Made by a program: the position numbers and the translations under genes. The notes below the pieces were generated by a model. The model did no database searches. It was not told where the DNA came from and was given only the letters and a program-made list of their open reading frames with translations. From positions 1-41,638 of the IMG/VR virus record IMGVR_UViG_3300043399_000579: 41,638 nt of DNA; one strand, 5' to 3'. This DNA comes from a virus. Positions 27,498 through 37,240 of the stretch are shown here, piece after piece (position 1 is the stretch's first letter; each line of letters begins with the position of its first letter).

Positions 27498-30400
27498 ATG
27501 AGTGCTGTTGTCAGTGAAATGTTGATCCGCATCGCGGCTGACACGGCACAGCTCCGCTCGCAGATGCAGCAAGCCGAGCAAACAGTCGGCGGCTCCCTCA
27601 ACGGCATCAAGAACATTGCCAGTCAGGCCCGCAACGCTTTAATTGGATTCTTTGCCATCGACAAGGCCATGGACCTGGCTGGCGCGTTCATCAAGACCGC
27701 TGACGCCATGGCCCTCACGTCTGCCCGGCTCAAGCTGGTCACCACCAGCGAGAGTGAGTACCTGGCGGTGCAGAAGGATGTCTACCGAATAGCGCAGCAG
27801 AACAGCATCGGGCTTGAGGAAATGTCCCAGCTCTATGCCAAGCTGCATGAGCCGGTGAAGCGCCTGGGCGGTACGACCGCTGAGACCACCAAGATCACCG
27901 AGTCTTTTGCCCTGGCCTTGCGCGTGGGCGGGGCCAACACGCAGGAAGCGGCCAGCGCCACCTTGCAGTTTGCGCAGGCCATGGCGTCGGGCAAGCTGTC
28001 CGGCGACGAATTCCGATCCATCGCAGAGGCTTCGCCGCGTTTCATGAAGGCTCTGGCTGATGGCATGGGCGTGCCGATTGAAAAGCTCAAGGAAATGGGC
28101 AGCGAGTCCAAGCTGACGGCGGACGTGGTGGGCAACGCCCTCATGAAGTCGCTGGCCCAGCTCAAGCAAGAGGCCCAAGGCATCCCCGACACCGTTGGCG
28201 GCGCGTTTCAGCGGCTCAAGAACGACGTGGCGGTGTTTGCTGTTGAACTCAATGGCGCTTCCAATGCAACGGGCAGCCTGGCCGAGGTCATTGGCGGCTT
28301 GGCCGATTGGGTGAAACAGATCACGGCGGTGTTCAAGGCGTGGAGCGATGCCACCAAGGGCACGACCGACCAAGTGGACATTGCCGGAATCGCCATCAAG
28401 GTGCTGGGCACCATTTTTGAAACGCTAATCGTGGTGGGGGCCGAGCTGGCTTACATGGTCCGCGCCATTGGCAAGTCTTTTGTGGACGTGGCGACATTGG
28501 CCAAGGCGTTTGCCGATGGTGGTCTGGAAGGCCTGTCTGACGCCTACAAGAAGGTGACCGCCGAGAACAAGGCCAGCCTTGAGGCCCACAACAAATTCAC
28601 CACTGGCGTGGTGGGCGCGACCAACCGCGTGCTGCAACAGCGTGACGCTCTCAGAAATCACAGCCTGTCGGCTGGTGAGAACGCCAACGAAATTGCCAGA
28701 CTGACCGGACGGCACGGCCAAGCCGAAACCGCGACGTTGAGGTCCACGATTGCCACCAAGGAGCAAACGGACGCGGCCAAGAAGGCGGCAGAGACCGAAA
28801 TCAAACGCGCCGCCGAAGTCAAGAAGCTGATGGACAGCATTGAGGACCAGACTGCTGCGCTGATCGTCAACGAAAACGCCACGGAAAGCCTCACCAAGTC
28901 TGAGCAGTTCGCACTGAAAGTGATGCAGGACTTGCAACATGGCCGCATCAAGCTGACCGATGCTGAAAAGGTGGCGCTGACGGCATCGCTTGAGTTGCTG
29001 ATTCAGACTGAGAAGCGCATCAAGGCCGACAAAGACCTTGCCGAGACCAAGCGCAAGGTGGCCGAGCACTCCGCCAAGCTGACCGAAGCCGAATGGAAAG
29101 AGGTCGAGGCGCTGCGCGAGGGCAACGTCAAGCTGATGGAGCAAAACGACGTTTTGCGCCTTGGAGAGGACGCAGTGCGTGCGCGTGAGGTGGCCGTGAT
29201 GCGTTCGCGTGCGTCTGATCTTGAGTGGGCAGCCGCCAACGTAGAGGGTAACGAAGCCTTGAATGAACAGGCCCGACTGTTGCGCCAGCGTGCTGACCTG
29301 GTGGAGGACAACGCGGGTCTGCAAGCGGCCAAAGCGGTCAAGGACGAATGGGCTGAGACCGCCAAGAACATCGAGACCAGCCTGACGGATGCGCTGATGC
29401 GCGGCTTCGAGTCCGGCAAGGGCTTCTTTGAGAACCTGCGCGAGGTGGCGGTCAACATGTTCAAGACGCTGGTGCTGCGCCCGATCATTCAGCCGATTGC
29501 GCAGGGCATGGCGGGCACGGTGCTCAGTTCCATGGGCATGAACGCATCGGCATCGACCGGCGGGGCAAGCGGCGGGGTCGGATTGTCGAACCTGATTTCA
29601 GGCGGCATGAACTTCCTGAACGGGTCGATGATTACCAATGCAGCCACGTCCGGGATCAGCAACCTGGGTGCAAGCATTGGCGGCGACTTTGGTGCCAACC
29701 TGATGATGAACTCGGGCACCTATGGCGCATACCTGGGCATGGCTGGCAACGCCTTTGCTGGGTACGGCCTTGGCCGCATGGCCAACGGTGCGATCAGTGG
29801 CGGCTACCAGATCAGCAGCGGCATGAGCACCATGCAGGACATTGGATCAGCTGTGGCCGGTGCCCTTGCTGGCCCGCTGGGTGGCTTGATTGCTGGCGCT
29901 GTCAGTGGTCTGGTCAATCGCGCCTTCGGTCGCAAGCTGACCGACCAAGGCATCGAGGGGAATTTCAGCGGTGGCAACTTTGCTGGCCAGAGCTACCAGT
30001 TCTATCGCGGCGGCTGGTTCAGAAGCGACAAAACCAAGTATGGCGACCTTGACTCTGAAATGGGCGAGGCCTTGTCGGTTGGCTCGCTGGCAATTTACTC
30101 CCAAGTCAAGCACTTCGCCGAGGTTTTAAAGCTGCCTGCTGAGTCATTGGCCAACGTCAGCAGCTACATGAAGATTTCGCTGACTGACGATGCCGAAAAG
30201 AATAAGCAGGCCATCGCTGATGCAATGACGGCCTACGGTGATGTGCTGGTGTCGTCGTTCTCTGCTTTGTTGGTGCCATTCCAACGGGAAGGTGAAAAGC
30301 TGATCGAGACACTGCAACGCCTGTCGGTCTTGCAGACGTTCAGCGAGTCCATCAACCAGCTAGGCGGCATCTTCTCGACCATCGCCGGGTCATCCATTGA

Positions 30401-30995
30401 AGCGCGTGAGGCGCTGATCGGCATGGCCGGTGGCATCGACGCCCTGATGGGCAAAGCCGCATCGTTCATCGAGGAATACTACAGCCAAGACGAAAAGGCT
30501 GGGATGCTGGCCCGCGACGTGGCCAACGCGCTGCAATCGGTCGGCATCGACACGACCAACTTGACTACCCGCGAGGACTTCCGGGCACTCGTTGAGTCGC
30601 GTGACGTTGAGACAGATGCAGGACGCCAGCAGCTGGTGGCCCTGTTGAACCTTGCCCCGCAGTTTGCCGGGCTGGCCGACTACATCAAGGAAAACGACAC
30701 CACGCTGGCCGAGCTGGTGGAGTCCGCGCCGCAAGTGGCCGTGCTGCAAAACATTCTTGACCCAGCGATGGCCACGGCAGACGCCACGCTGCAAATGGCC
30801 TCAAGCCTGGACCAAAGCAACGCCACGCTGACGGCCATCAACGGCAACTTGGAAGGCATCGCGGCATCGTCGGCGGCGGCAGCGGCGGCGGCAGCGGCAG
30901 CAGCAGCAGCAGCTGAGGCGGCGGCAACAGCGGCGCAGAGCCTGGTCTATGACGGCTCCGCGCCACAGTACGCTTACAACATTGGTGGTCTGTAA
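27498..30995 (+). CDS. Tape measure protein
   Basis: 1165 aa, the longest gene. The N-terminal ~250 residues form the tape-measure domain (TADAMALTSARLKLVTTSES, AQQNSIGLEEMSQLYAKLHE, GGANTQEAASATLQFAQAMA, SGKLSGDEFRSIAEASPRFM). A membrane-like segment follows near 305-325, then a long helical rod (about 400-640). A Gly/Ala/Met-rich hydrophobic part follows (about 660-810), and an Ala-rich run (A x 13) ends near residue 1145. If 1.5 angstroms per residue holds, the tail is roughly 170 nm. Confidence 0.93.
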   Translation: MSAVVSEMLIRIAADTAQLRSQMQQAEQTVGGSLNGIKNIASQARNALIGFFAIDKAMDLAGAFIKTADAMALTSARLKLVTTSESEYLAVQKDVYRIAQQNSIGLEEMSQLYAKLHEPVKRLGGTTAETTKITESFALALRVGGANTQEAASATLQFAQAMASGKLSGDEFRSIAEASPRFMKALADGMGVPIEKLKEMGSESKLTADVVGNALMKSLAQLKQEAQGIPDTVGGAFQRLKNDVAVFAVELNGASNATGSLAEVIGGLADWVKQITAVFKAWSDATKGTTDQVDIAGIAIKVLGTIFETLIVVGAELAYMVRAIGKSFVDVATLAKAFADGGLEGLSDAYKKVTAENKASLEAHNKFTTGVVGATNRVLQQRDALRNHSLSAGENANEIARLTGRHGQAETATLRSTIATKEQTDAAKKAAETEIKRAAEVKKLMDSIEDQTAALIVNENATESLTKSEQFALKVMQDLQHGRIKLTDAEKVALTASLELLIQTEKRIKADKDLAETKRKVAEHSAKLTEAEWKEVEALREGNVKLMEQNDVLRLGEDAVRAREVAVMRSRASDLEWAAANVEGNEALNEQARLLRQRADLVEDNAGLQAAKAVKDEWAETAKNIETSLTDALMRGFESGKGFFENLREVAVNMFKTLVLRPIIQPIAQGMAGTVLSSMGMNASASTGGASGGVGLSNLISGGMNFLNGSMITNAATSGISNLGASIGGDFGANLMMNSGTYGAYLGMAGNAFAGYGLGRMANGAISGGYQISSGMSTMQDIGSAVAGALAGPLGGLIAGAVSGLVNRAFGRKLTDQGIEGNFSGGNFAGQSYQFYRGGWFRSDKTKYGDLDSEMGEALSVGSLAIYSQVKHFAEVLKLPAESLANVSSYMKISLTDDAEKNKQAIADAMTAYGDVLVSSFSALLVPFQREGEKLIETLQRLSVLQTFSESINQLGGIFSTIAGSSIEAREALIGMAGGIDALMGKAASFIEEYYSQDEKAGMLARDVANALQSVGIDTTNLTTREDFRALVESRDVETDAGRQQLVALLNLAPQFAGLADYIKENDTTLAELVESAPQVAVLQNILDPAMATADATLQMASSLDQSNATLTAINGNLEGIAASSAAAAAAAAAAAAAAEAAATAAQSLVYDGSAPQYAYNIGGL

Positions 30996-33505
30996 TGCTT
31001 GAACAAATCGTTGTCGCTGAAATTGATGGCTACGACCCGGCCATCTACGGCACCCGCACGCTGCGCTTTTCCACGCAGGGCTTTGCCACAGCTGGCGCAC
31101 CGCTTGGCGACCCCACTCTGGACTCGCGTTTCACCGTCATCAGGGCAGGCGAGGCCACGCGCATCAATAGGCTTGGCCTAATTGAGACTGTTGCATCTAA
31201 CACGCCGCGCTTTGACTACAACCCAACAACCAAGTCAATCAATGGCTTGCTGATTGAGGAATCTCGCACCAACGTGTTGCTCAACAGCTTGCTCAACGGC
31301 AATAACTTGGCCACGCAAAACGTCACGGTCACGGCTACCGCGTACACCCTGAGCTTTTACGGCGCAGGAACAGTCACGATGTCGGGCGCATTTTCGGGGT
31401 CGCTGGTTGGTTTGGGAGCCTATCCAACGCGCTCCACACTGACATTTACGCCAACAGCAGGCACCCTCACGCTGACTGTGACGGGAACTGTGCAGTTTGC
31501 CAACTTGGAAGCTGGGTTGTCCGCTACCTCATTCATTCCAACGGCAGGCGCGGCAGTGACGCGCAACGTCGATTCGATTGTCATGAGCGGGTCAAATTTC
31601 ACGCCCTGGTACAACAGCGCGGAGGGCACGTTGTTTGCCGAGTGGCAGCAAGGCACTACCGATGTGGTGATCCCGGTTGGCATCACGGACGGCACAGTCA
31701 ACAACCGACTGACCATTGTTGGCGGAACGACCATTGGGGGCCGTATCACTGTTGCTGGTGTCTCGACCAACCCAGCGGCTGTGACCGGCGGTGTTGGTGT
31801 GCACCGATCTGCGATGGCGCTCAAGAGTGGCGACAGTGCGCAGTACACCAACGGCGTGCTGAACTCCGCTGTAACGCCTTCTGGCGTGCCCACAGTCAAC
31901 CGCATGGAGCTGGGCGGGCAGCCTGCCACATCAAGCGCCTACCTCAACGGCTGGTTGCGCCGGGTGATGTACTGGCCGACCAGGCTGACCAATACCCAGC
32001 TGCAACAGCTGACAACCGGCCAGCTGGTGCCATCCGGCATGAGGATGGAACTCGATCTGACCGGCGGCGCAAACGCCTATTACGAGGCCCGCATCAAGGT
32101 GCCGCCGAGCGTGCAGCGCGAGTGCTTCCAGAACGCCCGCACATTTGGCCGCAGCCAGATCGGCTATGGCGAGACCACGCTGGTCAACAACGACGGCGGG
32201 CTGGATTACATGCTTGGCTACAGCTATTCGGGCCGACGCATCGTGATTCGCCTGGGCACGCTGCAAAACGATCAGCTGACCTACGCCTGGTCAACCATCC
32301 TGGTCGGCAGCATGGAACAGGTCGAACTGTCATGGCAAGAGGTGGCCGTTCGCATCCGTGACCGACTGCTGGACCTGGCCACGCCACTGCAACAAGTCCG
32401 TTACGCGGGCGGCAACGTGCTGCCTGCCGGGCTTGAGGGCAACGACGACGACTTGAAGGGCAGGCCAAAGCCCCTGGTGTATGGCCAGGTGTTCAACATT
32501 TCCCCACCCTGCGTGAACACCACGCGCTTCATTTATCAGATCCACACTGGCGGCCAGGTGGTGTCGGTCAACGGCGTTTATGACCGGGGGGCCTTGCTCA
32601 CGGCTGGCGCTGCCTACAGCTCGCAGGCCGACATGGAAGCGAACTCCCCAAGTGCTAACCAGTACCGGGTCTGGAACGATGCAACGCTGGGATGCTTCAT
32701 CCGGCTTGGCTCAAACCCGACCGGTACCGTGACGGCTGACGTGACGCAGGGCGCAACCCGGACTGTTGGCCAACTGTTTCAGGCGATCTTGCTCAAGGCG
32801 GGCGTTCTGTCTTCACAAATCAATTCTTCGGACATCGCGGCGCTCGATGCTGCGGTGAGCTACCAGGTCGGCGTCTATGCAGGCTCAAACAGCGACGTGA
32901 CGCCGCTGGAACTGCTTGACGAGCTTTGCGCCAGCGTGGGTGCCTGGTACGGCACCGACATCAACGGCAACTTTCGCATTGGCCGGATCGTGCTGCCTAC
33001 CGGCACGTCCTTGGGCACCATCACAACGGTCGAGATCATCCAGATCGAGCGGATCGCCAGCCGTGATGCCGGTGTCGGCGTGCCTTCATGGAAGGTGAAG
33101 TTGGGCTGGCAGAAGATGCAGACCGTGCAGCCTGACCTGAACACATCGGTCAGCGTGGCCCGCAAGACCTTGGTGGCCGAGGAATACCGCCGCCAAGAGG
33201 TGAGTGACGCCACCGTGAAGACGGCCAACCTACTCAGCCCGGAAATTGAATTCCCGACCGTGCTGGTGAACAAGGGTGACGCGGCAAACGAAGCCGCCAG
33301 GCGCTTGGCAATCTACAAGGAGCGCCGCGACATCTACAAGCTGACCGTGCGGGTCGATGCGCAGCTTGCGTCGATTCTCGACCTGGGCAACATCGTGACG
33401 CTGCAGATCAACCGCTTCGGCATGAACGCAGGTAAGAAATTCCTGATAATCGGAGTCAAGAGCAATATGCGTGGCTACCTGTTTGAACTGACTTTGTGGG
33501 GCTGA
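30995..33505 (+). CDS. Tail-tip protein with inserted LamG-like carbohydrate-binding domain
   Basis: 836 aa. The C-terminal half (from about 360: YYEARIKVPPSVQRECFQNA, VELSWQEVAVRIRDRLLDLA, LLDELCASVGAWYGTDINGN) reads as a tail hub or distal-tail-type phage protein. Residues ~70-350 look like an insertion with a concanavalin/LamG-like fold: LLIEESRTNVLLNSLL, SATSFIPTAGAAVTRNVDSI, GTLFAEWQQGTTDVVIPVGI and YLNGWLRRVMYWPTRLTNTQ. That string order is typical of glycan-binding domains in phage tails. The start overlaps the tape measure stop by one base. Confidence 0.75.
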   Translation: MLEQIVVAEIDGYDPAIYGTRTLRFSTQGFATAGAPLGDPTLDSRFTVIRAGEATRINRLGLIETVASNTPRFDYNPTTKSINGLLIEESRTNVLLNSLLNGNNLATQNVTVTATAYTLSFYGAGTVTMSGAFSGSLVGLGAYPTRSTLTFTPTAGTLTLTVTGTVQFANLEAGLSATSFIPTAGAAVTRNVDSIVMSGSNFTPWYNSAEGTLFAEWQQGTTDVVIPVGITDGTVNNRLTIVGGTTIGGRITVAGVSTNPAAVTGGVGVHRSAMALKSGDSAQYTNGVLNSAVTPSGVPTVNRMELGGQPATSSAYLNGWLRRVMYWPTRLTNTQLQQLTTGQLVPSGMRMELDLTGGANAYYEARIKVPPSVQRECFQNARTFGRSQIGYGETTLVNNDGGLDYMLGYSYSGRRIVIRLGTLQNDQLTYAWSTILVGSMEQVELSWQEVAVRIRDRLLDLATPLQQVRYAGGNVLPAGLEGNDDDLKGRPKPLVYGQVFNISPPCVNTTRFIYQIHTGGQVVSVNGVYDRGALLTAGAAYSSQADMEANSPSANQYRVWNDATLGCFIRLGSNPTGTVTADVTQGATRTVGQLFQAILLKAGVLSSQINSSDIAALDAAVSYQVGVYAGSNSDVTPLELLDELCASVGAWYGTDINGNFRIGRIVLPTGTSLGTITTVEIIQIERIASRDAGVGVPSWKVKLGWQKMQTVQPDLNTSVSVARKTLVAEEYRRQEVSDATVKTANLLSPEIEFPTVLVNKGDAANEAARRLAIYKERRDIYKLTVRVDAQLASILDLGNIVTLQINRFGMNAGKKFLIIGVKSNMRGYLFELTLWG

Positions 33506-33506
33506 G

Positions 33507-34865
33507 ATGGCAAACATTTTTTTGGCGTGGCAGAACCGAGCTGACGAAGCCATCTTGTCGGGCGGCTCTTGGCTGTCGAGCCTACCCATCACCAACATGC
33601 AGAACCGACAGCTGCAGAAGGTCGCACGCACCAGCAACGCAGCCCTGACCTCGACCCGGTTTGACATCGACCTGCAGCAGGGTAGGCCGATTGGCGTGCT
33701 GGCGCTGGTCAACCACAACATCAGCGTGACGGGGCGCATCCAGATCACGGGCGCGGCCACGGCGGCGTCCCTGGCCAACCTGTTCACCACGTTCACCAAT
33801 GATTTCAGCAATGCCGCCTGGACCAAGGGCAATGTGTCGGTGACGCCCAACACCAGCAACGTGTTTGCACCCGATGGCAGCTCGACCGCAGCGCAGATTC
33901 TGGGGACGGCAACGACAGAGGCCAACGTCTACCGACAAATAAGCCTGCCTGGCACCTCAACGGTCACTCACAACATCTACCTGCAAGCCGGATCGACAAG
34001 CGCTGCTGCTACCAAGATCACATGGATGACAGGCGGCACAACGCAAACCGCATCGTGCTCGATTGACTTGCTAACTGGCGAGGTTTCAGCGATCACCGGC
34101 ACCGCGTCATCTATCACGGCATGGTCGGTTGACGCTGGAAACGGATGGTGGCTGTTGACCCTTTCAGGGACTGGCACCAGTGCGGGTAACACGGTGGTGC
34201 GCTACGAATTTGAAGTGTTTGGAGGCAAGAGCATTTACGCCTGGGGCGCTTTCATCACGCAGGCCGAGCCGCGCATCTACGTCAGCCCCTACATCGACGT
34301 GTGGCCCAATGGCATCGTGGTGCCCGAGCTGCTGGAGTGGGAGCAGGACAACTTCTGGCTTGGCACGCTGACGCAAGAACAGCGCGACCAGTATCAGTCC
34401 CCCTTCATCAACAAGATGCCCGAGCCGGACACGGCGCAATACTGGCGCGTCGAAGTGTTCGACGTGGACAACCCAGACGGCTACATTGAGATTGGCCGAC
34501 TGTTCCTGGCTCGCGGCTGGACGCCCGCCATCAACTACGCATACGGCGCGGACTTCGGCTACCAGGACATCACCCCGGTGGACAGAAGCCTGAGCGGTGC
34601 CGAGTACTTCGACATCCGGCCCAAGTTCCGGGTGATGAAGTTTGGCTTGGAGTACATCGAGGACAAGGACACCTACAGCTTTGCCCTTGACCTGCAGCGC
34701 GTCGCCGGTATCAGTGGCGAGGTGCTCATCATCCCTGACGGTGGCGAAAACCTGTCACGCCAGCCGCTCATCAGTTACCTCGGCAGGCTCAACCAGCTGA
34801 CGCCAATCGCGCAGACGCAGCCTACCGCCTACAACGTGTCATTTGAAGTCAAGGAGCTTTTGTAA
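33507..34865 (+). CDS. Tail protein with a second inserted binding domain
   Basis: 452 aa. Flanks are phage tail sequence: NIFLAWQNRADEAILSGGSW, STRFDIDLQQGRPIGVLALV and, after the insert, GRLFLARGWTPAINYAYGAD and YSFALDLQRVAGISGEVLII. Residues ~92-260 (FSNAAWTKGNVSVTPNTSNV, APDGSSTAAQIL, YRQISLPGTSTVTHNIYLQA) look like a jelly-roll carbohydrate-binding insert. It is found in the gene next to the LamG-like insert. Confidence 0.72.
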   Translation: MANIFLAWQNRADEAILSGGSWLSSLPITNMQNRQLQKVARTSNAALTSTRFDIDLQQGRPIGVLALVNHNISVTGRIQITGAATAASLANLFTTFTNDFSNAAWTKGNVSVTPNTSNVFAPDGSSTAAQILGTATTEANVYRQISLPGTSTVTHNIYLQAGSTSAAATKITWMTGGTTQTASCSIDLLTGEVSAITGTASSITAWSVDAGNGWWLLTLSGTGTSAGNTVVRYEFEVFGGKSIYAWGAFITQAEPRIYVSPYIDVWPNGIVVPELLEWEQDNFWLGTLTQEQRDQYQSPFINKMPEPDTAQYWRVEVFDVDNPDGYIEIGRLFLARGWTPAINYAYGADFGYQDITPVDRSLSGAEYFDIRPKFRVMKFGLEYIEDKDTYSFALDLQRVAGISGEVLIIPDGGENLSRQPLISYLGRLNQLTPIAQTQPTAYNVSFEVKELL

Positions 34866-35758
34866 TGTCCTCAGTTTATTTTGATCCCGCTGTTGGAGGC
34901 AACGGCTCCACTGTCAGCGATGATGCTAATCCGTCAACCGGCCTGGCCGATGGTGGCCACCGCACCCGCTTTGTGCCCGCGCTGGCGCAAGTGGTGGCGA
35001 TTGCTGGCAACACAGTCACCAAGGCTCAAGAAGCCGCTGCAAGCGCGGCCTCTGCGTCTGCAAGTGCCCTGACAGCGATCAACGCGCCAGGCACACAAGC
35101 CACGTCCACCAGCAGCGTGTCGATTGGTACCGGCAGCAAGTCATTCACTCTGGCGCAGACCGGCAAGAGCTTTGTGGTCGGCCAGTATGTGCAGGTGGTC
35201 AGCACGGCATCGCCAGCCAACTACATGGTCGGCGCGGTGACGGCCTTCAACAGCGGCACCGGGGCCATGACAATCAGCGTCACCAACGCTGCCAACGTCG
35301 GCGGGTCTGGCACGTTCTCGGCGTGGGCTGTTTTGCCTTCTTCACCACTGCCACCCAACGGCATGGCTTTGCTGGCCACCGTCACACCAACCAACGGCGC
35401 TTCAACTGTTGTCGTCACCGGTTTGCAGGCCTCCTCGGAACTCATCATTCTCGGGACAAAAGCTGTTTTGAACGGCAACAGCAATCTGTCATTTGCCGCC
35501 AGCGCAAACAACGGAACGAACTGGACATCAGAAAGCAGTGTTTCCGGTACCACCACAATTCATTCATTCAAGGCAGCGGTCAGCCTTGCAAACATCACTT
35601 CTGCTGACAAGCTAGTTGAGTGGCAGGGCGAGGCCGCAACACGGGGCTTTGGCAATCTGACCATGCCGACAACCGGTGCGGTGAACGCCCTCAGAATTAC
35701 CGCGCCATCGAGCACCTTTACTGGTGTTGGCACGATCTACGTTTACGGAGTGAACTGA
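34865..35758 (+). CDS. Tail fibre or receptor-binding candidate
   Basis: 297 aa. A short helical segment (VTKAQEAAASAASASASALT), typical of fibre coiled coils, separates an N-terminal adaptor from a Ser/Thr/Gly-rich beta C-terminus (SVSIGTGSKSFTLAQTGKSF, VVVTGLQASSELIILG, TFTGVGTIYVYGVN). Last large structural gene, so a candidate host-binding fibre. The ATG overlaps the previous stop. Confidence 0.7.
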   Translation: MSSVYFDPAVGGNGSTVSDDANPSTGLADGGHRTRFVPALAQVVAIAGNTVTKAQEAAASAASASASALTAINAPGTQATSTSSVSIGTGSKSFTLAQTGKSFVVGQYVQVVSTASPANYMVGAVTAFNSGTGAMTISVTNAANVGGSGTFSAWAVLPSSPLPPNGMALLATVTPTNGASTVVVTGLQASSELIILGTKAVLNGNSNLSFAASANNGTNWTSESSVSGTTTIHSFKAAVSLANITSADKLVEWQGEAATRGFGNLTMPTTGAVNALRITAPSSTFTGVGTIYVYGVN

Positions 35759-36081: not shown

Positions 36082-36279
36082 GTGAGCACCACGCACCACG
36101 CAACAGAATCGGGCATTGCCCTTGCGGCCAAAGCAGCCCCACCAGTGTCAGTGTCCATCGCCTCCGTTGCTGGGTACCAGGTCTCCGAAATCCTCCTTTG
36201 GGCCACGCTGATCTACACCGTCTTGATGATTGGCCACAAGCTGTATGTGATTTACAAGGACGTGCGGGGCGACAAGTGA
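36082..36279 (+). CDS. Holin
   Basis: 65 aa from the GTG at 36082, chosen for its AAGGA site seven bases upstream; a GTG at 36067 would add five residues. Product MSTTHHATESGIALAAKAAP, then one strong transmembrane helix (SEILLWATLIYTVLMIGHKL), possibly a weak one before it (VSVSIASVAGYQ), and a basic tail YVIYKDVRGDK. It would form membrane holes that time lysis. It is next to endolysin and spanins. The two GTGs raise the possibility of dual-start holin and antiholin. Confidence 0.8.
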   Translation: MSTTHHATESGIALAAKAAPPVSVSIASVAGYQVSEILLWATLIYTVLMIGHKLYVIYKDVRGDK

Positions 36280-36737
36280 GCCGTATTCGCCTTGCTGGCC
36301 TCTCCCTCAGTGCTGCGGCGCTGATCGGCCTTGCAGTGCATGAGGGCTACCGGGAAACAGCCTACATCCCGGTTAAGGGTGACGTGCCCACCATTGGATT
36401 TGGTGACACCCATGGGGTGAAGCCTGGCGACAAGACCGATCCGGTCCGCGCCCTGATCCGCATGGGCCAGCACGCAGAAAACTTCCAGCGCGACCTGCGC
36501 AAGTGCATCGGGGATGTGCCCATGCACCAACATGAGTGGGACGCCATCGTGTCTTGGGCCTACAACGTGGGCACGCCTGCCGCCTGCAGCTCGACCCTGG
36601 TGCGCAAACTCAAGGCCTTCGACTATCCCGGCGCGTGCGCTGAACTGTTGCGCTGGGATCGCTTCAAGGGCCAGCCACTTCCAGGCCTCACCAAACGCCG
36701 CCAAGCTGAACACCGACAGTGCATGGGCACCCAATGA
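36276..36737 (+). CDS. SAR endolysin, GH24 muramidase
   Basis: 153 aa from the GTG at 36276, which overlaps the holin stop. The first ~20 residues (SRIRLAGLSLSAAALIGLAV) are weakly hydrophobic and rich in Ala, Gly and Ser, the pattern of a signal-arrest-release helix that lets the enzyme be held and then freed at the membrane. Glu23 in HEGYRETAY is the catalytic acid; Asp36 and Thr39 follow in GDVPTIGFG, a spacing usual for this subfamily and different from T4. WAYNVGTPAACSSTL is the C-terminal GH24 block. Confidence 0.9.
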   Translation: MSRIRLAGLSLSAAALIGLAVHEGYRETAYIPVKGDVPTIGFGDTHGVKPGDKTDPVRALIRMGQHAENFQRDLRKCIGDVPMHQHEWDAIVSWAYNVGTPAACSSTLVRKLKAFDYPGACAELLRWDRFKGQPLPGLTKRRQAEHRQCMGTQ

Positions 36738-37240
36738 TCGCCATCTTGCTTTCACCCCGCCTGTGGATCGCCCTGGCCCTTGCTGCCTTGCTGGGCTGGT
36801 CACACCTGACGGCCTACCAGGCAGGCAGGGACCGTGTACAAGCCCGCTGGGACGTGGCCAAGGCATCAGAGGCCCAACAGCGGGCCAGCGACCTGGAACA
36901 GGCCCTGGCCACCCAGCGCGGCCTGCAGGCACAGATCGACACGCTGAGAAAGGAAGCACGCAATGAAGTTGCTCGCATCAATCGCAATCACGCTTTGGCT
37001 CTTGACGGGCTGCGCAACCGCCCCGAAGCCCGCGCCACCGACACAGCTGGTGTGCCCCAGGCTGCCGGACCTGGTGTTGGATGCACCGGTCAGGGACTGG
37101 CAAGGCCAGATGCTGAATTTCTTATCTGGTTTGCTCGGGACGCCGCCCGACTACAGTCTGCCCTCGACCAATGCCGGGCCGGGTATCAAGCCGCCCAAGA
37201 ACGCCTTGCAGGGGGGGACATGAAGGATGGCACTCCCTGA
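36734..37240 (+). CDS. Rz-like inner-membrane spanin
   Basis: 168 aa. ATG at 36734 overlaps the endolysin stop. One N-terminal transmembrane helix (LWIALALAALLGWSHLT), then a long periplasmic coiled coil (AKASEAQQRASDLEQALATQ). It should bind the outer-membrane spanin encoded inside it and disrupt the outer membrane at the end of lysis. Confidence 0.85.
   Translation: MIAILLSPRLWIALALAALLGWSHLTAYQAGRDRVQARWDVAKASEAQQRASDLEQALATQRGLQAQIDTLRKEARNEVARINRNHALALDGLRNRPEARATDTAGVPQAAGPGVGCTGQGLARPDAEFLIWFARDAARLQSALDQCRAGYQAAQERLAGGDMKDGTP
36963..37223 (+). CDS. Rz1-like outer-membrane spanin lipoprotein, nested in Rz
   Basis: 86 aa in another frame entirely inside Rz. A lipoprotein signal (MKLLASIAITLWLLTGCATA) with lipobox LLTG-Cys17, then a Pro-rich mature part (PKPAPPTQLVCPRLPDLVLD). 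Fully embedded Rz1 is a known spanin layout. The second half is longer than typical Rz1. Confidence 0.85.
   Translation: MKLLASIAITLWLLTGCATAPKPAPPTQLVCPRLPDLVLDAPVRDWQGQMLNFLSGLLGTPPDYSLPSTNAGPGIKPPKNALQGGT

Follow-up and report, generated by a model that had tools for sequence, protein, structure and literature searches.

Carbohydrate-binding modules inserted in the Dit and Tal proteins of the phage tail tip have been documented (PMC7291167). In skunaviruses, an evolved Dit is described as restoring infection of EPS-bearing hosts, with changes in both adsorption and infection (PMC10688798), and in streptococcal Brussowviruses an insertion in the gp27-like domain of Tal, between sub-domains 3 and 4, has been read as two lysin domains (PMC9437275). 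Head-spike fibres provide a second point of reference: tagged Rcc01080, the head-spike fibre of RcGTA, is reported to bind capsule-bearing cells better (PMC10218006), and head fibres are cited as enabling attachment to the capsule (PMC7296036).

Here we describe a locus in a virus record, IMGVR_UViG_3300043399_000579, analysed over its whole stretch of 41,638 nucleotides (the window), in which two open, adjacent ORFs, A and B, lie right downstream of the tape measure gene. An earlier note on this DNA had proposed that two neighbouring tail-tip genes each carry a different insert with core sequence continuing on both sides, and comparison with the insert-free relatives L010 and L011, which align along both flanks of each insert at 57-65% identity, bears this out. 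The genes and their parts are as follows.

27498..30995, + strand: tape measure gene, the context upstream of A (Pfam TMP_3, E 3.9e-55; PHROG tape-measure families)
30995..33505, + strand: gene A, 836 aa, predicted tail/baseplate hub of gp27 / T5 pb3 type with an internal insert (PHROG 8917, E 1.1e-97; fold matches)
30995..31090, + strand: A core, first two strands, residues 1-32 (alignment with relatives; strands 4-14 and 19-26 in the AlphaFold2 model)
31091..31576, + strand: A insert, proximal "RTN" module, residues ~33-194 (64% identity to part of a stand-alone ORF in L216; Rcc01080 profile match)
31577..32044, + strand: A insert, distal domain of the LamG/ConA family, residues ~195-350 (PHROG 5939, E 2.6e-16; Pfam matches of the family; weak match to a sialidase chain)
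32075..33502, + strand: A core, remainder of the hub, residues 361-836 (69% identity to L009; pLDDT mostly >90)
33507..34865, + strand: gene B, 452 aa, putative tail-tip protein with a predicted CBM32/discoidin-like core and an internal insert (PHROG 8610, E 4.2e-44; fold match)
33762..34292, + strand: B insert, predicted CBM-like jelly roll, residues ~86-262 (fold matches of model residues 82-255; Rcc01080 profile match)
34293..34862, + strand: B core, C-terminal part, residues 263-452 (68% identity to L009; 57-61% to the insert-free L010 and L011)
34865..35758, + strand: gene C, putative tail-fibre-like protein, its role suggested by context (N-terminal stretch matches DNA just 3' of B in many relatives)

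The two cores and their inserts

Both PHROG 8917 and PHROG 8610 are families of unknown function, gene C matched no PHROG family at E up to 1, and a megablast search of positions 27498-35755 against phage records returned no match. Profiles of A and B likewise matched no PDB chain sequence at E up to 10. In the AlphaFold2 model of gene A, 479 of the 836 residues have a pLDDT of 90 or more, with most ten-residue blocks in 1-30 and 361-836 scoring >90, and the core matches T5 pb3 (7zqp_b) over 453 residues with Z 18.8 and 3d37_B over 289 residues with Z 19.2; the modelled fold is that of a gp27-like hub, and a foreign domain is set within this gp27-like domain, as in evolved Tal proteins. The modelled core of B (residues 6-336, insert skipped) matches the CBM32 structure 2v72 with Z 11.3 over 128 residues and also resembles CBM32 and fucose-binding lectins at Z 10-11, so that its predicted fold is a discoidin-like beta sandwich of the CBM32 / F5-8 type C kind. 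As to a possible Dit core in B, the CBM32/discoidin matches fall on the N-terminal core and the C-terminal part is barely covered by matches, and of the 50 matches listed from a Foldseek comparison of this model with viral models, most are unnamed or uncharacterised proteins.

Alignment to insert-free relatives places the A insert at residues ~33-360, directly after the second strand of the hub, and the B insert at residues ~86-262, in a loop of the B core. The earlier note had drawn a LamG-like insert at ~70-350 of A and a jelly-roll insert at ~92-260 of B; both inserts and the jelly roll stand with these adjusted extents, and the LamG-family part of A is confined to ~195-350. Insert-free cores measure 519-520 aa for A (L010, L011, L012) and 287 aa for B (L010, L011), and identities to L010/L011 are similar before and after each insert: 65/62% for residues 1-32 and 61/65% for residues 361-836 of A, and 65/65% for residues 1-85 and 61/57% for residues 263-452 of B. 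Within the insert ranges, just 8 residues of L010/L011 align in A and 12-14 in B. The same edges are visible in the DNA, where homology to L011 at the B site ends at window position 33733 and restarts at 34293, leaving a gap of 559 bp compared with 64 bp in L011. At the A site, homology to L009 and L004 begins at 32080-32081, just past the insert, and homology to the insert-free L011 restarts at 32147. At the edges of the inserts, a search for repeats indicative of transposition gave short, imperfect matches only.

The whole A insert matches the profile of PHROG 5939 (tail protein) with E 1.9e-45. Among 24 aligned members of the family of its distal domain, 23 match PHROG 5939 at E up to 0.001 and six match Pfam Laminin_G_3 at E up to 0.1 (best 1.6e-9), and the family profile has weak matches in the PDB to a sialidase chain (E 0.007) and to BNR/Asp-box proteins (E 0.02), which are compatible with a ConA-like sandwich. 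The name LamG for this domain is taken from the sequence family, because a Pfam scan of the window's own sequence for LamG gave no match and the insert is modelled at low confidence (pLDDT <50 across most of it), so that its fold is not modelled reliably. For the B insert, with pLDDT of about 54-81 by blocks, model residues 82-255 match a baseplate chain of phage Pa193 (9b45_1; Z 14.1, 165 residues) and, at Z ~10, several CBM chains, and the modelled fold is the jelly roll of carbohydrate-binding modules. On these models, B looks like a jelly roll placed inside another lectin-like sandwich. A tblastn search with the B insert against phage records gave no match at E up to 1e-3. Profile comparison detected no relation between the distal A domain and the B jelly roll (probability 3%).

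Several features elsewhere in the window were recorded. The tail tube protein (411 aa) was considered as a third decorated gene, being longer than the Pfam domain, yet those relatives covered over the full gene match it along the whole length and the extra sequence looks like an integral part. A long alanine run lies near the C-terminus of the tape measure protein (window ~30865-30940). Most of the ORF at 18469-20670 matches a portal family, and its C-terminal part matches head-morphogenesis families, a pattern that would suit a fusion of portal and minor head protein. Overlapping ORFs at 36719-37240 and 36963-37223, 3' of a lysozyme-like ORF (36198-36737), have by eye the look of a spanin pair. 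No tRNA genes were found.

Distribution and exchange of the inserts

Relatives were drawn from viral contigs, genome contigs and phage records, with 80 of 175 confirmed relatives retained in one search and 80 of 81 in another. At least 134 distinct ORFs match the A core and at least 136 the B core, and the sampled relatives include 109 distinct adjacent complete A-B pairs. Counted as sequences rather than lineages, with insert classes assigned by hand and a cluster about L058-L092 (~42% identity to L010) over-represented, the hub-loop insert is present in 4 of the 109 pairs (window, L009, L004 and L138), the B-loop insert in 5 (the same four and L115), and 92 have neither an A longer than 600 aa nor a B longer than 330 aa. 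Most sampled relatives thus lack the inserts, rather than all homologues carrying them as integral parts of the fold. Three relatives discussed below lie outside the 109 pairs: L113, in which A is truncated; L178, in which the B start is over-called; and L153, in which the hub is truncated by the edge of the sampled DNA and B is not adjacent.

Other long A or B proteins have, on manual reading, N- or C-terminal extensions or inserts elsewhere. Among hub relatives, L162 (L162:3129-4478) has a 450-aa N-terminal fusion matching Pfam NosD (E 1.5e-9; 38.1 bits, cut-off 23.6) that is probably a beta-helix; L177 (L177:3304-4119) has a repeat insert of ~270 aa in another loop, perhaps a propeller, with weak DUF6242 and Kelch matches below cut-off; and gp72 of EBPR siphovirus 2 (L001:4669-5910) has a repetitive N-terminal extension of ~414 aa on the hub.

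A profile search of genome contigs with the B core found 14 loci, 13 on contigs titled as proteobacteria and one on a Gemmatimonadaceae contig; no relative was confirmed when the A core profile was used in the same way. A genome contig of Limnohabitans radicicola encodes a B core 82% identical to that of L010.

The hub tree, built from 89 of the 134 distinct A ORFs without the first 39 columns, places the window copy (L003) with L009 and L004 in a clade (SH-aLRT 99) that groups with five insert-free hubs and L125. At the A site, the L009 and L004 hubs hold a jelly roll of ~190 aa instead of the LamG domain, 61% identical between the two and with no detected relation to the window A insert; the A proximal module likewise showed no relation to these relatives' jelly rolls in profile comparison (0.2%). 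The L138 hub belongs to a separate lineage, paired with the insert-free L054 (SH-aLRT 99); its hub loop holds a CBM_4_9-like domain (Pfam 25.3 bits, cut-off 25.9), and there is a jelly roll at the B site. Hub-loop inserts are thereby found in three lineages, the third being that of L153, and other kinds of B-site insert are found in L113, L115 and L178. The earlier note had called the two insertions independent. For the A type this is supported, in that the two nearest hubs hold a different domain at the same site; for B it needs qualification, as L009 shares the jelly roll (58% identity) and the A-site jelly rolls of L009 and L004 look like distant relatives of it (hhalign probability 89%, with two-row profiles).

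The L113 cassette suggests a recombination breakpoint, as read from aligned DNA: the 773 bp leading up to the B site show 94% identity between L113 and the insert-free L050, L113 then has 653 bp against 59 in L050, and downstream of the insert identity is 75% over 2.4 kb (L113:1429-3804). This drop in identity means that the cassette may have arrived with downstream DNA. The B tree (86 of 136 distinct ORFs), built from 179 columns and less clear than the hub tree, mixes L138 and the insert-free L011 with the window group at support values of 83-90, a mixture that recombination or weak signal may explain.

Decoration of both genes is recurrent, occurring in the window clade and in L138, and is not a rule. 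Of the five hubs identified with this hub-loop insert, four are accompanied by a decorated B and one, L153, by a plain B; the full L153 hub rules out the proposition that a hub-loop insert is always paired with a B insert. Conversely, L115 and L178 combine a B insert with an insert-free hub, and L155 and L156 have an insert-free B and a hub insert in a neighbouring loop, the turn that joins the first strand to the second (the L155 insert, L155:4054-4557, matches PHROG 5939).

The L153 hub, in a third and distant part of the hub tree, is 1407 aa long (L258:515-4738, - strand) and consists of core columns 4-40, an insert of ~890 aa and core columns 35-519, with an insert-free B protein of 267 aa encoded ~2.7 kb downstream. 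PHROG 5939 covers much of its insert, which resembles the window A insert at its start (48% over 54 aa) and contains both a LamG-like stretch related to window A (32% over 207 aa, E 3e-12) and a stretch like the window B jelly roll (30% over 140 aa, E 3e-5). Since this single hub insert holds relatives of both window inserts, genes A and B seem, as far as sequence similarity indicates, to draw on one pool of modules. The related start and LamG part at the same site in so distant a hub could also be taken to mean that the ancestor already had the inserts and that most relatives lost them. We regard such a history as very improbable, because insert-free forms are spread over the sampled tree, with 92 of 109 pairs lacking a long A or B, and because a single ancestral domain would need later replacement to account for the A-site domain of L009 and L004, the nearest relatives.

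Cassettes in other genes and the probable role of the inserts

Related cassettes also occur away from the A and B cores. A stand-alone ORF of 334 aa (L216, L217) shares 50% identity over 312 aa with the A insert, the match in L216 being 64% for the proximal module and 38% for the distal part; the L216 record, a 25-kb fragment, contained no match to the A or B core, whereas the control L010 record showed both. Limnohabitans phage DC31 has a protein with 50% identity to part of the A cassette. The distal A domain was found at 39 loci, one of them the window copy, and forms the C-terminal end in 24 of 28 other host ORFs examined, none of which contains the A or B core. In Azospirillum phage Cd, the B homologue has an N-terminal extension of 614 aa containing similar modules. 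Both window inserts are also linked by profile to Rcc01080: positions 4-69 of the two-row profile of the A proximal module match residues 32-93 (E 6.2e-5), and the B jelly roll profile matches residues 83-250 (E 1.8e-8), with E 4e-27 for the profile of related B jelly rolls.

We consider it probable that the inserts are auxiliary glycan adhesins at the tail tip, taken up by recombination and exchangeable among relatives. A and B would be conserved siphovirus tail-tip parts, each with a loop that tolerates foreign domains. Recombination with the tail- and spike-fibre genes of other phages would have placed the RTN and LamG cassette in the hub loop and, by the same route, a jelly-roll carbohydrate-binding module in the B loop, where related phages hold other cassettes. 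The inserted domains would most likely hang off the tip, bind host polysaccharide (capsule, EPS or LPS) and help adsorption; sugar binding is suggested by the fold and by the similarity to a protein that binds cells through their capsule.

CBM-like folds can act as structural spacers, and the inserts might instead stabilise or space the tail-tip ring, or hold the gene C fibres, without binding the host. The hub fold belongs to tube-closing proteins and similar jelly rolls occur in the baseplate wedge/triplex protein of Pa193/E217, both of which would suit such a structural part. It is nevertheless an unlikely account, given that the A site holds different cassettes (RTN with LamG, jelly roll, CBM_4_9-like) and in most sampled relatives none, indicating that no specific fold is needed there, and given that both inserts resemble Rcc01080, a likeness that speaks for polysaccharide binding.

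That cassettes differ between near relatives would also be expected if they were neutral passengers of recombination with no function. The reading frames are open, and change is greatest at third codon positions in the B insert compared with L009 (raw differences of 0.32/0.29/0.62 by codon position, which are not a formal dN/dS) and in the A proximal module compared with L216 (0.37/0.19/0.53, likewise raw). The distal A domain is less clear (0.51/0.46/0.68). These patterns make a purely neutral origin hard to credit. The earlier note had gone further and seen selection on host attachment; the data show repeated acquisition, replacement at the same site and a predominance of third-position change, from which such selection may be inferred.

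As an extension of the adhesin reading, the hub loop and the B loop could be alternative docking sites that lie near each other once the tip is assembled and are filled from one pool of fibre modules, such that the composite adhesin of L153 (RTN head, jelly rolls, LamG) would be split in the window over two adjacent genes acting as a unit. We put this forward tentatively, as a possibility that we do not favour. If it were true, a phage of Gram-negative hosts would retune its attachment through domain exchange in the conserved, tube-closing hub region and not only in its fibres.

Comparison with known tail-tip and head-spike adhesins

The locus resembles the evolved Dit and Tal proteins described mainly in Gram-positive siphophages, in that conserved tail-tip proteins encoded next to the tape measure contain inserted modules, binding or lytic in the known cases, whose presence varies among relatives. 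It differs in the position of the A insert, which follows the second strand near the hub start and does not lie between sub-domains 3 and 4 as described for the Brussowvirus Tals (PMC9437275); in the second decorated protein, B, for which a CBM32-like core is predicted; and in its setting, as the relatives of B are mostly on proteobacterial contigs rather than in Gram-positive systems. The fold of the A core is, by model comparison, like that of the T5 baseplate hub pb3 (BHP), but the T5 hub is described as having a large hdII insertion and C-terminal FNIII domains, whereas the extra domain of A is near the hub start. The A proximal module and the B jelly roll share their profile matches with Rcc01080, in which both parts are in one head-spike protein; here the related parts are split over two adjacent tail-tip genes. 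Roseophage R4C (PMC10276861) is a further siphophage of a Gram-negative host described with carbohydrate-binding accessories on its tail-tip proteins, namely an insertion domain in Dit and a carbohydrate-binding domain in the megatron, although other proteins and domains are involved and the available account of that phage presents no exchange at the same site.

With the present locus, the idea of evolved Dit and Tal reaches phages found chiefly in proteobacterial genomes and takes in a new insertion position, near the beginning of the hub. The likeness of its cassettes to a capsule-binding head spike gives a concrete class of ligand, and near relatives with different or no cassettes at one loop form a natural comparison set for tail-tip inserts and adsorption. 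In the open-access literature we found no report of the same arrangement. Its kind is already known; the sites, the exchange of cassettes and the split over two genes are new here.
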